64,000 nucleotides of DNA from the NCBI GenBank assembly GCA_913058185.1, contig CAJXQX010000009.1:1-64000 (forward strand), read 5' to 3'. The stretch comes from an uncultured Verrucomicrobiota bacterium (GTDB lineage Bacteria > Verrucomicrobiota > Verrucomicrobiia > Opitutales > Opitutaceae). A program made the translations under genes and the position numbers. Positions 25,665-36,869 of this stretch are shown piece after piece; the first letter of the stretch is position 1, and every line of letters starts with the position of its first letter. The notes beneath the pieces are model-generated. The model was given only the letters and a program-made list of their open reading frames with translations. It did not search any database and was not told the DNA's origin.

Positions 25665-26708
25665 ATGCAAGATTCACTCTCCGCCCTCGTCGAACGGGCG
25701 AAATCCGAACTCCCGAACATCACGTCGCGACCCGATTTCGAGTCGCTCAAAGCTACTTTGGTCGGTCCCAAAGGCGAACTCACCGGTTTGATGAAGCAGA
25801 TGGGGACGGTTTCGAAGGAAGAGCGTCCCGCCATGGGCAAGCTCATCAACGAGACCAAGAACGCGCTGCAAGGTTTGCTGGATGCGACCCTCAGCGGTTT
25901 CGAAGCCGCTGAACTTGCCGCTCAACTTGGGCCCGCCATCGACCCGACGTTGCCGTCACCCGATTCCATCGCCGGAACCCGGCATCCGCTCACGCTGGTG
26001 CGCGAAGAGCTCAATGCGATTCTCAAGAAGGTTGGTTTCACCGTGGTGGAAGGCCCGGAAGTGGAAACGGAGTATTACTGTTTCGATGCGTTGAACACGC
26101 CGGCGACGCATCCGGCGCGCGATCCGCAGGATACCTTCTATTTCCCGACGGACGCAAAATTCTCGAACATCGATAAAAAGGTAGAGAACGAGAAATACCT
26201 CCTCCGCACGCATACCTCTTCGGTGCAGATTCGCACCATGTTGAAAGGGGAGCCGCCCATCCGCATCGTCTCGCCAGGTCGCGTCTATCGTCGCGATACG
26301 GTCGACGCCACCCACTCAGCCAATTTCCATCAAATGGAAGGTCTATACGTCGATAAGAACGTGACGGTGAAGGATTTGAAAGCACTGCTTGATTACATTC
26401 TGAAGTCGCTCCTCGGCTCCGATACGAAGGTGCGCTTCCGTCCGCATTATTTCGGTTACACCGAGCCCAGCTTCGAAGTCGATCTCTCCGCCAAGCACCT
26501 GTCGAAGGTGAACAAGGAGTGGGTCGAAATCATGGGCTGCGGCATGGTCGATCCGGCCGTGTTCGACGATATCGGTTACGATTCTTCGGTGTGGAGTGGA
26601 TACGCCTTCGGCATGGGTATCGAACGCATTGCCATGATGATGTATGGCATCGATGACATCCGCTATTTCTACCAAAACGATCTGAGGTTTCTTCGCCAGT
26701 TCGGCTAA
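25665..26708 (+). CDS. pheS: Phenylalanyl-tRNA synthetase alpha subunit
   Basis: 347 residues from the ATG at 25665; an upstream in-frame start at 25587 would run through the terminator hairpin and is rejected. The N-terminal coiled-coil domain precedes the class II catalytic core: motif 2 region HTSSVQIRTM and PGRVYRRDTVDATHSANFHQ, motif 3 GYAFGMGIERIAMMMYGIDD. It joins PheT in an alpha2beta2 enzyme charging tRNA-Phe. The downstream partner pheT is separated by an inserted four-helix-bundle gene with repeat arms. Confidence 0.97.
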   Translation: MQDSLSALVERAKSELPNITSRPDFESLKATLVGPKGELTGLMKQMGTVSKEERPAMGKLINETKNALQGLLDATLSGFEAAELAAQLGPAIDPTLPSPDSIAGTRHPLTLVREELNAILKKVGFTVVEGPEVETEYYCFDALNTPATHPARDPQDTFYFPTDAKFSNIDKKVENEKYLLRTHTSSVQIRTMLKGEPPIRIVSPGRVYRRDTVDATHSANFHQMEGLYVDKNVTVKDLKALLDYILKSLLGSDTKVRFRPHYFGYTEPSFEVDLSAKHLSKVNKEWVEIMGCGMVDPAVFDDIGYDSSVWSGYAFGMGIERIAMMMYGIDDIRYFYQNDLRFLRQFG

Positions 26709-26713
26709 GAAAC

Positions 26714-26746
26714 AGTAGTGAGTATCGAGTAGCGAGTAATGAGCAT
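26714..26746. repeat. Left heptad arm of the four-helix-bundle element
   Basis: Units AGTAGTG, AGTATCG, AGTAGCG, AGTAATG, AGCATGG. It begins 5 bases after the pheS stop and overlaps the start codon of the four-helix-bundle gene. 30 of its 33 bases match the left arm between gatA and gatB (36772-36804). Confidence 0.8.
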
Positions 26747-27101
26747 GGAATCCCGATCACAATCCTTTCGCGAAGTGATTGCCTGGCAGAAGGCACATGA
26801 CTTCACCTTGGCGATTTACCTACTCACGAGTGAGTTTCCCAAGCACGAATCCTTCGGGCTTACATCGCAGTTGAGGCGAGCGGCTGCGAGCGTTCCGGCC
26901 AATTTTGTCGAGGGCTTTCGAAAGCGCACGCTCCCGGATAAGATCCGTTATTACAACATGGCCCAGGCATCTGCTGACGAGTGCCTCTATCACCTTATTT
27001 TGGCCCACGATTTGAAATACGCTGACACCTTAGTGTTGCAGGCCGATTTGGAAGAAGTCTCCCGGCTCCTCCAAGGTTACATCAACGGAATGAAGCGATG
27101 A
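26739..27101 (+). CDS. Four-helix-bundle protein (23S rRNA intervening-sequence/S23 family)
   Basis: 120 residues (ATG at 26739, or the second ATG two codons on). The sequence has the family's hallmarks: FREVIAWQKAHDFTLAIYLL in helix 1, FPKHESFGLTSQLRRAAASV, PANFVEGFRKRT, and YYNMAQASADECLYHLILA. Relatives are encoded in intervening sequences within 23S rRNA of Leptospira and Coxiella, and a related fold serves as the accessory protein Avd of diversity-generating retroelements. Stand-alone copies have no settled function. Here the gene lies inside the pheS-pheT operon, flanked by inverted 7-base repeat arms (26714-26746 and 27111-27143), which looks like an inserted element rather than a native operon member. 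Confidence 0.9.
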   Translation: MSMESRSQSFREVIAWQKAHDFTLAIYLLTSEFPKHESFGLTSQLRRAAASVPANFVEGFRKRTLPDKIRYYNMAQASADECLYHLILAHDLKYADTLVLQADLEEVSRLLQGYINGMKR

Positions 27102-27110
27102 GTCTCAAGC

Positions 27111-27143
27111 CTACTCGCTACCCACTACTCGCCACTCACTACT
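27111..27143. repeat. Right heptad arm of the four-helix-bundle element
   Basis: Reverse complement reads AGTAGTG, AGTGGCG, AGTAGTG, GGTAGCG, AGTAG. It matches the left arm at 25 of 33 positions and ends 10 bases before the pheT start. Confidence 0.8.
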
Positions 27144-27153
27144 TTTCCAACAA

Positions 27154-29607: not shown

Positions 29608-29637
29608 GCGAACGCTGCTTTCGACTTGTTGCCGCCT

Positions 29638-29702
29638 GTCGGGCCTAAAGCCCGACCCACCGTTGGCGCGTCCTGCAGAGTGGGTCGGGCTTTACGCCCG
29701 AC
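29638..29702. repeat. Long hairpin between convergent genes
   Basis: 23-base arms (29638-29660 and 29680-29702) with one mismatch, built of GTCGGGC and GCCCGAC units, separated by 19 bases. It lies between the ends of pheT and the minus-strand DUF1592 gene, so it may act as a two-way terminator. Its composite structure (each arm is itself a short palindrome) is repeat-like. Confidence 0.75.
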
Positions 29703-29703
29703 A

Positions 29704-32274
29704 TCACTGGACCGGGGTTTGAGCTAGAACCGCTGTAGCCTCGGGTAGATCGAGGCGTTCTTCGCGAAAAAGTGGGCTGTCGATAACCGCGGCGATGGTG
29801 TCGATGATGCGATATTCCTGCTCGGCGGAGCGCTGCACCAATTTCTCAATTTCCCAGTAGTTGTCGGGTTCGACTCCATTGGCGTAGGTCAGTAATTTGG
29901 TCACGAAGCAGCGTACGAATCGGTGCCGATTGGTCGGCGTCTTCATCAGTTGGCGATACTCGACGATGTTGTTGTAAGACTCCCCGTTGCGGAACTTCTC
30001 CGTGGCATCGATAGGCAGAGGTTTGTTCAGCCAAGGTTTGGGTAGGGGAGGTAGGCCCAAATCCGCGAGCCGTTTGTCTTCCTCGGCGATGCGTTGCAGC
30101 TCTTCTCGGCCCGGACGCTTGGCAATCTGCATCGTGTAGGCTTCACGCCATCCGCCTTGAGGATCGAAGTTTTCGAAGGCGTAGCCGTAGGGATCAATCG
30201 TGCGATGGCAGGAAGCACAGGTTTCGTCCGCGGTGTGGGCGGCCAAGATCTCCTTGATGGTTTTGGCCTGCCGCACGTCAGGTTCGGTGATGACTACGTC
30301 TGCTGGGGGTGGGTTGGGGTGGATGCCGAGTAGGTTTTCCATCACGTAGATGGCGCGATGGATGGGCGACGTGCCCAAGCTGTCGGCGGTGAGGGTGAGA
30401 AAGGCTCCCATGCCCAAAATACCTCCCCGTCTACCATCGGCGAAGGTGTAGTGTCGCAGGACTGAATCCTGCGGCACACCATCGACGTCATAGATCTTGG
30501 CCAGATCGGCGTTGATAAACGAATAATCCGCCTCGAGAAATTCGGTGATGGGCAGGTTGTTTTCCACCACGTGGCGGAAAAAACGCACCGCTTCGGCGGA
30601 CATGTCACCACTCAGTCGCTTGCGATCGAAGAGGGGGAAATGATCTGGATCGGGCGCCATGAAATTGATGCGGTCCAACTGCAGCCAGGCTTTCGGAAAC
30701 GCCTCCATAAAGGGGGTGGCATGGCCGGACTCAAACTTACGTCCGACCACGTCGCGCACGGCCGCATAGTCTTTCAAGAGATCTTTCGCCGCCACCTGTC
30801 GCAGGCCGGCGTCGGGCGTCGTGCTCTGTAGAAAGTAGCTGAACTTCGCCGCGAATCGATCAGCGGGACTCAATTCAGGGGCGTTGAGCAACAAAAACGA
30901 CGGAGAAACCATCACGGCAACGATCCCCTCTTTGAGGGCACCGATGGTGCCCAGCTTCGGTGCCTGCGATTCCACGAGTTTCACCAGCGGTGCGAGTTCA
31001 CCCCGTTTCACTTCTCGTCGCCACGCGCGTTCCGCAATCGGTCGTAAAATCTCTTCGGCGTTGCCGACTTGGGGTTCGGATCCGAGGAGTTGTTGTTGGC
31101 GCGTCGCCGGCCACTCCGAATAGTAGGGGCCTTCGACTTCGGCATCGAACAAACGCGGTCGGGGGCCCTGCCAATAATTCACCCAATGCACCCAATGACT
31201 GGGGGCGGTGCTGCGAAATTTGGCCAATGGGACTTCGTCGCGAATGACACGAGCGTGCAGCTCGGGGTTGTGTTTCTCGAGGTAGTCGTGGGCGATACGG
31301 AATTGGAATTTGAAGTTACCGTTGGCGAGAATTCGGAGGCCATCGGTGGGGTAGCTGAGCTGGACCCGTGTCCCGGCGACCAGCCATTCGTCCAGCGCGA
31401 TTTCGAACACCTCGTTGTCGGGTAGATCGAAGTCGCGAATGCGATCACCCAGGTGCACGCGCAGGCGAATCGGATCGGCGTGGTAGGTGCCCGTCGCGGC
31501 TTCGTCATAGATGGCTCGATCGATTGCCGTGCCGCGGATCTTAATCCGGTAGTTGCCGCTGGTTGGGACGGTTTCGAAGTTGTCGAAATAGATCCGTTTG
31601 CGCATGTCGATGATATCAACGCTGTCGAATTTGCGGTGAGCATCCTCGAATCGGTCGTTGCCGCGTGAGCCGACAAATTCCATCCGCTGGGCCGGAACTC
31701 TGAATCTTTGAACCGCGGGTTGGACCCCCTCAAAAATGACTCCGTTCACGACTTTGCGTAGCGATTCGATGTATTGTTCGATATGAAATTCACTTATCCC
31801 CAACGAATCACCATGGGTGTCGAATCCAGCGAATAACGTGTCACCCAGCAGGTTGGCCGTAGGCTGATGGGTGCCGACATCCTCGATCAGGAGGACGTCC
31901 CGGATACTGTTGGTCAATTCGCGGTTGTTGAGGCGGCGGGGAGGGACGTATGGAGCGGGTTGGCCGCGTTCGTGAAACAGGCGCAAGGTGTCCTCGAGGA
32001 AATTGACCAAGGCGGCGCGCTCTGTTTCCGTGATGTCGACTTCATCGACCGGCGGCATTTCCCCGGAAGCCACAAAATCGAAACTGTCTTCCCAGAAAAA
32101 TACGTTGTCCTCAGTCGGGCCGGTGCCGAGATCGGTGAGACTGAACTCGCCTTTGAGGTCGTCGTCGTTGTGGCATTCTGAACAATGCTGCTCCAGCACA
32201 TTGGGCTCCGCCCAACCGATCGAAGCAGCGATCGCCCAAAGGCCCAGTTTACCGGTCAGTTCGGCCTTACCCAT
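29704..32274 (-). CDS. Secreted planctomycete-type cytochrome (DUF1592 family), second copy
   Basis: 856 residues with a short signal-like N-terminus (KAELTGKLGLWAIAASIGWA). Haem site CSECH in the N-terminal PSCyt1 module (HCSECHNDDDLKGEFSLTDL) and CASCH followed by RTIDPYGYAFENFDPQGGWR in the DUF1588 region. After the second site it has an insertion of roughly 40 residues (KRPGREELQRIAEEDKRLAD and following) absent from the copy at 2532-5027. The C-terminus fits DUF1585. Its start codon overlaps the last 8 bases of the upstream DUF1552 gene, implying coupled translation and a joint periplasmic role. Confidence 0.88.
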   Translation of the reverse strand: MGKAELTGKLGLWAIAASIGWAEPNVLEQHCSECHNDDDLKGEFSLTDLGTGPTEDNVFFWEDSFDFVASGEMPPVDEVDITETERAALVNFLEDTLRLFHERGQPAPYVPPRRLNNRELTNSIRDVLLIEDVGTHQPTANLLGDTLFAGFDTHGDSLGISEFHIEQYIESLRKVVNGVIFEGVQPAVQRFRVPAQRMEFVGSRGNDRFEDAHRKFDSVDIIDMRKRIYFDNFETVPTSGNYRIKIRGTAIDRAIYDEAATGTYHADPIRLRVHLGDRIRDFDLPDNEVFEIALDEWLVAGTRVQLSYPTDGLRILANGNFKFQFRIAHDYLEKHNPELHARVIRDEVPLAKFRSTAPSHWVHWVNYWQGPRPRLFDAEVEGPYYSEWPATRQQQLLGSEPQVGNAEEILRPIAERAWRREVKRGELAPLVKLVESQAPKLGTIGALKEGIVAVMVSPSFLLLNAPELSPADRFAAKFSYFLQSTTPDAGLRQVAAKDLLKDYAAVRDVVGRKFESGHATPFMEAFPKAWLQLDRINFMAPDPDHFPLFDRKRLSGDMSAEAVRFFRHVVENNLPITEFLEADYSFINADLAKIYDVDGVPQDSVLRHYTFADGRRGGILGMGAFLTLTADSLGTSPIHRAIYVMENLLGIHPNPPPADVVITEPDVRQAKTIKEILAAHTADETCASCHRTIDPYGYAFENFDPQGGWREAYTMQIAKRPGREELQRIAEEDKRLADLGLPPLPKPWLNKPLPIDATEKFRNGESYNNIVEYRQLMKTPTNRHRFVRCFVTKLLTYANGVEPDNYWEIEKLVQRSAEQEYRIIDTIAAVIDSPLFREERLDLPEATAVLAQTPVQ

Positions 32275-35302: not shown

Positions 35303-36766
35303 ATGTCGACTCCCTTAACTTTTCAAACCCTCAGTGGGATTGCCGATCAGTTGGCTTCTGGCGCGCTTACCTCGGTGCAATTGACGCAAGCGGTCATCGA
35401 CCAAACCGCCGCGGTGGAAAGTCGCGTGAACGCGCTGCTCTCCCACGATGCGGCGGATGCATTGGCTCACGCTCAAGCCTCGGACGAACGCCGGGCCGCG
35501 GGTAAGCCTCTCGGCCCTTTGGATGGTATTCCCATAGCGTTGAAAGATGTCATCGCGGTGAGGGATCAACCCCTCACGGCGGGCAGCAAGATGCTCGAGA
35601 AATTTGTGTCTCCCTACGACGCGACGGTCACGATCAAGTTGAAAGAGGCGGGGGTGGTTTTATGGGGCCGAGCCAATTGCGACGAATTCGCCATGGGTTC
35701 TTCCACTGAGAACTCGGCGTTTAAAACGACCGCCAATCCTTACGACCTCGCCCGCGTTCCTGGGGGCAGTTCCGGGGGCAGTGCCGCGGCTCTCGCGGCG
35801 GGTGAGGCGATTGCCACGCTCGGTTCCGACACCGGTGGATCGATTCGGCAACCGGCCGCATTTTGTAACGTAGTCGGTTTGAAACCTACCTACGGATTGA
35901 TTTCGCGCTACGGCCTCGCGGCTTATGCCTCTTCGTTGGATCAGATTGGTCCCTTCACCCGCACGGTGGAAGACGCCGCGATAGTCCTCGGGGCGATCGC
36001 CGGACATGATCACCGTGACTCCACTTCCTTCAAGACGCCGATCCCTGACTACCGGGCGGCGCTGCAAGAAAAGAAGGGCCCATGGAAACTGGGCATCCCC
36101 AAGGAATATTTTGGTGAAGGTCTCGATCCTGAGGTCGGAGCCGCCATCGAGAAAGCGATCGAGTTTTATCGCCAGGCGGGTTGTGAGATCAAAGAGGTTT
36201 CGCTACCGCATACCGAGTATTGCCTCAGCACCTACTATATCATCGCCACGGCGGAAGCCTCCTCGAATTTGGCCCGTTATGACGGAGTGCGTTACACCCA
36301 TCGCTCGCCGGACGCGAAGAACATTGAGGACGTTTATTTTAAGTCCCGCTCCGAAGGGTTTGGCGACGAAGTGAAACGTCGGATCATCCTCGGCACCTAC
36401 GTGCTCTCGAGTGGTTACTATGATGCGTATTATTTACGGGCTCAGAAGGTTCGCACCCTTATCCGGCAGGATTTCCTCAAGGCTTACGAAGAAGTCGATG
36501 CGATCCTGACGCCTACCACGCCAACCCCCGCTTTCAAGATCGGCGAGACGACGGATCCGCTTTCTATGTATCTGCAGGATATTTACACGGTGGGGGTGAA
36601 TCTCGCCGGTCTGCCTGGCATCTCAGTTCCCGCCGGGTTCACCGACGAGGGACTTCCGATCGGGATGCAACTGATCGGTCAACCTTACCAAGAATCCGAT
36701 CTACTCGCCATTGCCCACACCTACGACTCCGCCCACGACTGGAGTGGGCGACTACCTGAACTATGA
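35303..36766 (+). CDS. gatA: Asp/Glu-tRNA amidotransferase subunit A
   Basis: 487 residues. The amidase signature is clear: Lys in PIALKDVIAVRDQPLTAGSK and the Gly/Ser-rich segment ARVPGGSSGGSAAALAAGEA with GSDTGGSIRQPAAFC, giving the Ser-cis-Ser-Lys triad. GatA releases ammonia from glutamine for transamidation of misacylated Glu-tRNA-Gln or Asp-tRNA-Asn. The genes gatC-gatA-gatB form one operon. A tRNA-Gln gene is present in the same window. Confidence 0.97.
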   Translation: MSTPLTFQTLSGIADQLASGALTSVQLTQAVIDQTAAVESRVNALLSHDAADALAHAQASDERRAAGKPLGPLDGIPIALKDVIAVRDQPLTAGSKMLEKFVSPYDATVTIKLKEAGVVLWGRANCDEFAMGSSTENSAFKTTANPYDLARVPGGSSGGSAAALAAGEAIATLGSDTGGSIRQPAAFCNVVGLKPTYGLISRYGLAAYASSLDQIGPFTRTVEDAAIVLGAIAGHDHRDSTSFKTPIPDYRAALQEKKGPWKLGIPKEYFGEGLDPEVGAAIEKAIEFYRQAGCEIKEVSLPHTEYCLSTYYIIATAEASSNLARYDGVRYTHRSPDAKNIEDVYFKSRSEGFGDEVKRRIILGTYVLSSGYYDAYYLRAQKVRTLIRQDFLKAYEEVDAILTPTTPTPAFKIGETTDPLSMYLQDIYTVGVNLAGLPGISVPAGFTDEGLPIGMQLIGQPYQESDLLAIAHTYDSAHDWSGRLPEL

Positions 36767-36771
36767 GTCAA

Positions 36772-36862
36772 AGTAGCGAGCATCGAGTAGCGAGTAGTGA
36801 GCATGTTCGTTCATGTTTCAATATGCGGGCTACTCGCTACTCGCTACACACTACTCGCTACT
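36772..36862. repeat. Inverted heptad element between gatA and gatB (no ORF)
   Basis: Left arm 36772-36804 (AGTAGCG, AGCATCG, AGTAGCG, AGTAGTG, AGCAT). Right arm about 36830-36862, whose reverse complement reads AGTAGCG, AGTAGTG, TGTAGCG, AGTAGCG, AGTAG. The centre is only about 25 bases. The left arm is 30/33 identical, and the right arm about 27/33, to the arms around the four-helix-bundle gene in pheS-pheT. Both elements start 5 bases past the upstream stop codon. Confidence 0.8.
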
Positions 36863-36869
36863 AAAAATA

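Follow-up and report, generated by a model that had tools for sequence, protein, structure and literature searches.

The spacer between pheS and pheT in the window, the 64,000 nucleotides of an uncultured Verrucomicrobiota bacterium analysed here, probably holds an rRNA intervening sequence (IVS) in its operon-spacer form, that is, a mobile element of about 430 bp with inverted arms of five units each and with dispersed derivatives lacking the open reading frame (ORF). The gene family, the rRNA IVS, the heptamers of Coxiella and the GGGAATC arrays of Xanthomonas are already known. A general placement of mobile PF05635 genes outside rRNA, enclosed by inverted arms with some five units each, was not found in the literature searched: open-licence PMC texts, outside which lie most subscription journals and preprints, yielded no paper connecting inverted heptad arms with PF05635 genes other than those in rRNA.

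Two elements in operon spacers of the window

The ORF-bearing element has a twin without the ORF about 10 kb downstream, in the gatA-gatB spacer. Each arm of both elements consists of five GAGTAGC-like heptads, the two arms being inverted. The features are:

26713..27144, + strand: whole ORF-bearing element, pheS-pheT spacer
26713..26747, + strand: left arm of the ORF-bearing element, CAGTAGT, GAGTATC, GAGTAGC, GAGTAAT, GAGCATG; the ORF starts inside this arm
26739..27101, + strand: PF05635/TIGR02436 four-helix-bundle gene (23S IVP, S23p), 120 aa
27110..27144, - strand: right arm of the ORF-bearing element, read inward AAGTAGT, GAGTGGC, GAGTAGT, GGGTAGC, GAGTAGG
36771..36863, + strand: whole ORF-less twin, gatA-gatB spacer
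36771..36805, + strand: left arm of the twin, AAGTAGC, GAGCATC, GAGTAGC, GAGTAGT, GAGCATG
36829..36863, - strand: right arm of the twin, read inward TAGTAGC, GAGTAGT, GTGTAGC, GAGTAGC, GAGTAGC

The flanking stop and start codons are at 26708 (pheS) and 27154 (pheT), and at 36766 (gatA) and 36870 (gatB). Both elements start 4 bases past the preceding stop and end 9 bases before pheT and 6 before gatB, close to the 5 and the 7 to 10 bases given in a first-pass annotation made from the letters alone. That annotation had described 33-base arms pairing at 25 positions around a 23S-IVS-type gene, and the same pairing was obtained here without gaps. The recurrence of the arms between gatA and gatB, with about 23 bases between them, was likewise recovered (30/33 on the left, 27/33 on the right), while the best matches in five mononucleotide shuffles of the window reached only 18 to 21 of 33. 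The gene itself scored 109.4 bits against both PF05635 (cut-off 33.8) and TIGR02436 (cut-off 24), confirming its type. The window element has pairing arms around an IVP ORF as an IVS does, and its position is between pheS and pheT, not in an rRNA gene.

Folded as RNA, the ORF-less element reached -47.7 kcal/mol (z -7.2), which none of 200 shuffles equalled; the fold of the full ORF-bearing element was modest (z -2.3, 1/100 shuffles as good). Rfam searches over 14 kb yielded one match under E 1, far below the gathering score and outside the element, and PADLOC gave no match.

The encoded protein

The AlphaFold2 model of the window protein (pLDDT 94.5) shows four helices, and structure comparison identified the four-helix-bundle fold of the solved members, with 2gsc_D and 2rld_C as best matches (Z 18.1). 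2gsc and 2rld, the two solved structures of the family, contain five chains each, and S23p of Xanthomonas is described as a toroidal homopentamer (PMC4990558). Avd from complexes of diversity-generating retroelements (DGR) came next in the fold list, with Z 14.8 to 8ub8_C and 13.8 to 4dwl_D, values barely higher than those of unrelated helical bundles in the same list (up to 13.8). Against the DGR Avd model NF033474 the window protein scored 22 bits, below the curated cut-off of 80. We know of no catalytic motif in the IVP protein. Purifying selection acts on the ORF, dN/dS being 0.03-0.15 in the seven genus pairs with estimable dS (three pairs with G002 were saturated).

PF05635 was present in 220 of 288 genomes sampled from the phylum of the window. 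Relatives were also found on 39 plasmid records and one phage record, and four plasmid loci were read. On plasmid pANA02 of Anabaena sp. 90 (L214), a type I-D CRISPR operon carries a PF05635 gene with its arms between cas6 and cas4.

GAGTAGC arrays in the genome

The genome (4.09 Mb in 159 contigs) contains six PF05635 genes. A 19-base heptad pattern, allowing two mismatches, matched 39 times in forward and 39 times in reverse orientation, and its reversed control gave 0 and 0; a shorter pattern was noisier (41 and 47 versus 18 and 16 for the control). By our count, the 30 GAGTAGC sites read comprise 13 with inverted arms, one same-direction pair, and 16 with one recognisable arm. Units were counted in 44 arms, leaving out four weak array hits (L051, L052, L065 and window 1576): five units were present in 26, four in six, six in four, three in four, seven in two, and eight and two in one each. 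In 29 of the 44 arms, the outermost unit is AAGTAGC or AAGTAGT. The annotation's proposal of an element family with ORF-bearing and miniature forms in operon spacers is supported by these 30 sites and by other loci. The preference for translation operons that it had suggested was not supported as put, because gyrB-gyrA and other spacers are used as well.

Among the six PF05635 genes, only that of the window is enclosed by GAGTAGC arms. Around the remaining five are GATTTAC-like, GGATTTC-like and AAGTTCC-like heptads, the hexad GAGAAC, and one octad-like unit. Since arrays of these other units occupy the far side of some one-armed GAGTAGC sites, these sites are layered. At one locus on contig C88 of G000 (L006), a PF05635 gene lies beside a second stretch that reads similarly; an AAGTAAC-type array separates and surrounds the two, giving the impression of a pair of elements in tandem. 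Within the window, a palindrome-like stretch of about 70 bp (about 29636-29706), located between pheT and the gene that follows, has many dispersed matches on both strands; among the matches listed, all listed genomes of the genus except G006 and G007 carry it, and it perhaps represents a REP-like family.

Occupied, empty and exchanged spacers

Comparison of orthologous spacers demonstrated gain or loss of elements. Among the eight genomes of the genus, the pheS-pheT spacer contains an IVP element in G000, G002, G004, G005 and G007, other inverted arrays in G001 and G003, and no clear array in G006. The ORF-less GAGTAGC element is present between gatA and gatB in G000, G002, G003, G004 and G005, a nonad palindrome in G001, and, in G007 (L238:6130-6501), a GxxExxY gene flanked by arms of the CACAGAGG type; G006 was unreadable at this spacer.

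Contig C74 carries three more elements, designated A, B and C. Element C is present in G000 and G005, a worn array is found at its site in G006, and the site is empty in G003, G004 and G007, where TGA is followed by ATG within about 10 bases. The site of element A is empty in G003 and that of element B in G001. No target-site duplication was seen by eye at elements A, B and C; at the site of element C, genomes with and without the element differ by about 10 bp outside each arm. In G001 and G002 (L390, L391), the element C site is taken by a gene of about 570 bases without evident arms, presumably encoding an ORF6N-domain protein. The element B site (L389, L387) holds a GCTGAAA-type heptad palindrome in G003 and G005 and a GAGTAGC one in G000, G004 and G007, so that different repeat families share one slot.

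In the family, pheT was recovered from 58 of 61 genomes and 30 loci were read, one of which (L294) was unreadable at pheS-pheT. Classified by eye, the remaining 29 spacers comprise three with IVP, one with GxxExxY, ten with ORF-less palindromes of other units, 13 of less than about 60 bases without an array, and two that are unclear. Empty sites in relatives, which the annotation had proposed to look for, are thus found at pheS-pheT in the family as well as at the spacers of elements A, B and C. Insertion sites vary among relatives, which contradicts an ancient spacer sequence fixed at the same place in all of them.

Matches to the G007 element were detected in 44 of 252 family genomes, some of them to the arms only. 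GAGTAGC-armed ORF copies occur between gyrB and gyrA at two loci confirmed by NCBIfam (L398, L410) and at seven further ones assigned by the same flanking letters. Copies between pheS and pheT were confirmed at L404 and assigned by position in G043. The gatA-gatB spacer of G397 (L402, confirmed) harbors a full ORF-bearing GAGTAGC element, the counterpart of the ORF-less twin in the window. A tree built from 18 proteins has one starred branch (100/99) that sets the pheS-pheT copies of G002, G028 and G356 apart. Their arms are GAGGAGC- or GAAGCTA-like, and all proteins on the other side of the branch, at whatever site, are GAGTAGC-armed. In these 18, the kind of arm therefore goes with the clade of the protein, whatever the site. 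No finer order is claimed, because eight of the 15 inner branches are open and three of the parted rows are long. One GAGTAGC-armed clade accordingly occupies pheS-pheT, gyrB-gyrA and gatA-gatB in different genomes, and two protein clades occupy pheS-pheT.

A recent event is visible in G004 and G007. Their elements are 98% identical with an ORF pS of 0.07, while pS in the flanks is 0.62-0.65 for pheS and, for pheT, 0.51 over the first 150 codons and 0.72 over the next 300. Identity drops back within about 100 bases on either side of the element. Between G005 and G004 or G007, pS is 0.48 in the ORF and 0.57-0.75 in the flanks, and an excess of identity at the element was absent from the other genus pairs with IVP. 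This island, one event in one pair that includes a draft genome (G004, 82% complete, 770 contigs), demonstrates a single recent interspecies transfer to the same spacer; ordinary recombination could be its source.

Arms around PF05635 genes in other phyla

The broad sample consisted of the 80 best among at least 592 PF05635 stretches, reduced to 79 by one short flank. By our reading of the titles, it covers at least 15 phylum-level groups and includes two loci from Methanophagales archaea. In this selection, a period-7 array is present in at least one 150-bp flank at 61 of 79 loci and in both flanks at 41; a period of 8-10 was detected on at least one side at 15. PF05635 loci from the phylum of the window have period 7 in 25 of 30 cases. 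Among control loci with PIN-domain genes, one of 30 showed period 7 and two of 30 period 8-10; for GxxExxY genes the numbers were 0/30 and 19/30. Inverted complementarity of the two flanks (score of at least 15) was detected at 46/79 broad, 13/30 phylum, 19/30 GxxExxY and 0/30 PIN loci, and with mismatched flank pairs at 3/79, 2/30, 0/30 and 0/30, respectively. With 200-bp flanks at 84 loci, period 7 leads upstream in 52 and downstream in 58. Within the same loci, only 16 of 293 windows located 1-2 kb away from the gene showed period 7.

The GxxExxY (TIGR04256) genes lie between inverted arrays of 8-10-nt units at these 19 of 30 loci (L247-L276; L283). They use the same spacers, gatA-gatB in G007 and pheS-pheT in G348, and form a parallel element class.

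The arms also recur in other genomes, contrary to the absence that would have spoken against an element family: the GAGTAGC pattern is present in 34 of 76 relatives. One of the genomes, G011, has 52 matches to it (23 and 29) and no PF05635 match, i.e. arms without the gene. Both neighbours are co-oriented with the PF05635 gene at 72 of 104 loci and both are opposite at nine, 16 of the 120 loci described below being left out for want of two readable neighbours; co-orientation on both sides is what any operon gene shows.

Number, register and letters of the units

Unit numbers were determined for 120 loci, comprising the set of 84, 30 from the phylum and six from the genome itself. Period-7 arms were obtained in 75 upstream and 86 downstream flanks (161 in total), and no array above threshold in 26/120 upstream and 16/120 downstream flanks. 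Arm length peaks at 30-32 bp (49/161). Five evenly spaced cores are contained in 68 of the 161 arms, four in 27, six in 14, three in six, and seven or more in 46, so that 93 arrays are longer or shorter than five. The longest near-perfect arrays have about 23 units. Period-8 arms are without a clear peak (five units in 5/27, six in 6/27), and those of period 9 are too few (three with four, one with five and one with 18 units).

The arms are purine-rich when read inward: 67 of 75 upstream arms, and 22 of 86 downstream arms as written, before complementing. They share a unit register of approximately A-G-T/G-G-A-N-N with one G at 92%. Its information is 2.19-2.21 bits versus 1.76 (sd 0.04, best 1.88) in 60 column permutations with equal starts. 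The register gives no direction of the unit, because by construction the alignment is just as good for mirrored units. Agreement between the arms within a locus is 0.72 versus 0.47 between loci, and 46 of 63 loci are above the 95th percentile. Protein identity and heptad similarity are hardly correlated (Mantel r 0.095, reached in 69 of 2000 permutations; r 0.035, reached in 521 of 2000, for the pairs with less than 55% identity). A deep code between protein and repeat letters was rejected on this nearly null result, and reading of specific letters by the protein can be claimed at most among close relatives. The key regularity, which the annotation had missed, is that five units at period 7 persist while the letters of the units change. 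Together, the peak at five cores and the five chains in the two solved relatives make it attractive to suppose one repeat core for each subunit of a pentamer.

Relation to known systems

In Coxiella, the 23S IVS has tandem heptamers GACAGAT ahead of the S23p start and a 28-bp terminal stem, and is excised by RNase III (PMC4990558). The elements described here resemble the 23S rRNA IVSs of Leptospira and Coxiella in having a PF05635 ORF between pairing arms, and that of Coxiella also in the tandem heptamers directly upstream of the ORF start. They differ in being located in spacers of protein operons and in having many ORF-less copies.

The GGGAATC arrays of Xanthomonas appear as 70 and 75 convergent pairs, mostly of four units, in a study whose subject is G-quadruplexes (Rehm 2015, PMC4692102); that study found no general tie to mobile elements, and the terms 'four helix' and 'S23' are absent from its text. 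In X. vasicola, the PF05635 gene (L133) has GGGAATC-like arms, and the pattern matches 152+154 (306) times in that genome, with 0 matches for the reversed control.

Likeness to DGR Avd, a pentamer in the DGR ribonucleoprotein, is restricted to the fold and the weak NF033474 match; it is already in print (PMC10053308). Reverse transcriptase and template repeat are not part of the window element, whose neighbours are pheS and pheT.

Proposed mechanism and alternatives

The homopentameric protein would recognise the arms, one repeat core per subunit. TRAP is a ring protein reading evenly spaced repeated triplets. The likeness may lie in the idea of a ring reading evenly spaced short cores; the family considered here differs in its pentameric state, the 7-nt spacing and the inverted arms, and its binding is putative. 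The hairpin in the transcript would be cut back between the cistrons, in the way RNase III acts on a 23S IVS, which would render the insertion harmless. IVP, alone or complexed with the arms, may promote spread to alleles that lack the element, with co-conversion over short tracts, and ORF-less copies would be moved in trans. Cited authors hold that the IVP protein is not made at their locus, which counts against a general need for the protein.

Alternatively, the arms could be MITE-like and moved by an unrelated transposase such as Y1/RAYT, with IVP either carried along or domesticated to bind the arms. The dispersal of short repeats through spacers as inverted pairs, with and without an ORF, does resemble REPINs. 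Y1 transposases (PF01797) were detected in 34 of 46 relatives and with six matches in this genome, and could move ORF-less copies; the 52 GAGTAGC pattern matches of G011, a genome without any PF05635 match, point in the same direction. However, the units here are short tandem repeats whose letters are not fixed, IVP is a four-helix bundle and not a Y1 enzyme, and no Y1 transposase was found inside the window element, where the ORF is PF05635, the Y1 genes being elsewhere in the genome. No Y1 gene happened to be noticed with an arm around it. Moreover, G024 has the gyrB-gyrA element and no PF01797 match, and in many phyla PF05635 genes are enclosed by arms of widely different letters, which fits a link to the protein better than a shared transposase. 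We consider this explanation unlikely, albeit the strongest of the rivals.

Less probable still is an operon gene that for the most part does not move and whose hairpin is regulatory, IVP being a conserved regulator that binds its own arms and those of other operons, the slots being inherited or lost and the identity island resulting from homologous recombination. Purifying selection on the ORF, the co-directional neighbours and the recurrence of the pheS-pheT slot in several genera would suit a regulator, and binding of one at paired arrays of five heptanucleotides was proposed for Geobacter (PMC2700814). On the other hand, the same clade resides in three unrelated operons, two clades in one spacer, and close species hold a GxxExxY gene or 8-10-mer palindromes in the same spacers. 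Slippage does act, as judged from the long, near-perfect arrays of up to about 23 units, and heptamers have been linked to polymerase slippage in a published opinion (PMC4679880). That the heptads are simple sequence repeats only, accidentally tied to the gene, is nevertheless very improbable in view of the inverted layout around the gene, the agreement of the arms, the five-unit peak and the control families.

The mobile operon-spacer form of the IVS is therefore preferred. A wider reading is more tentative and by our estimate falls short of an even chance: a pentameric ring would read five evenly spaced cores per arm, as RNA or single strand, and home into spacers of conserved operons. It would define a widespread unnamed class of elements in Bacteria and some archaea with the 23S IVS as its rRNA branch. 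Most unexplained intergenic heptamers of bacteria would be arms and ORF-less remains, and the GxxExxY class with 8-10-nt units would share the slots.

PF05635 is a common family, hitherto without a role beyond the rRNA IVS, and its association with arms offers a candidate ligand. The association also accounts for a published puzzle, the over-represented intergenic heptamers such as GGGAATC in Xanthomonas. The question of IVS mobility, which PMC4990558 credits to Ralph and McClelland, becomes open to simple tests, and spacers of essential operons emerge as a habitat for mobile elements.
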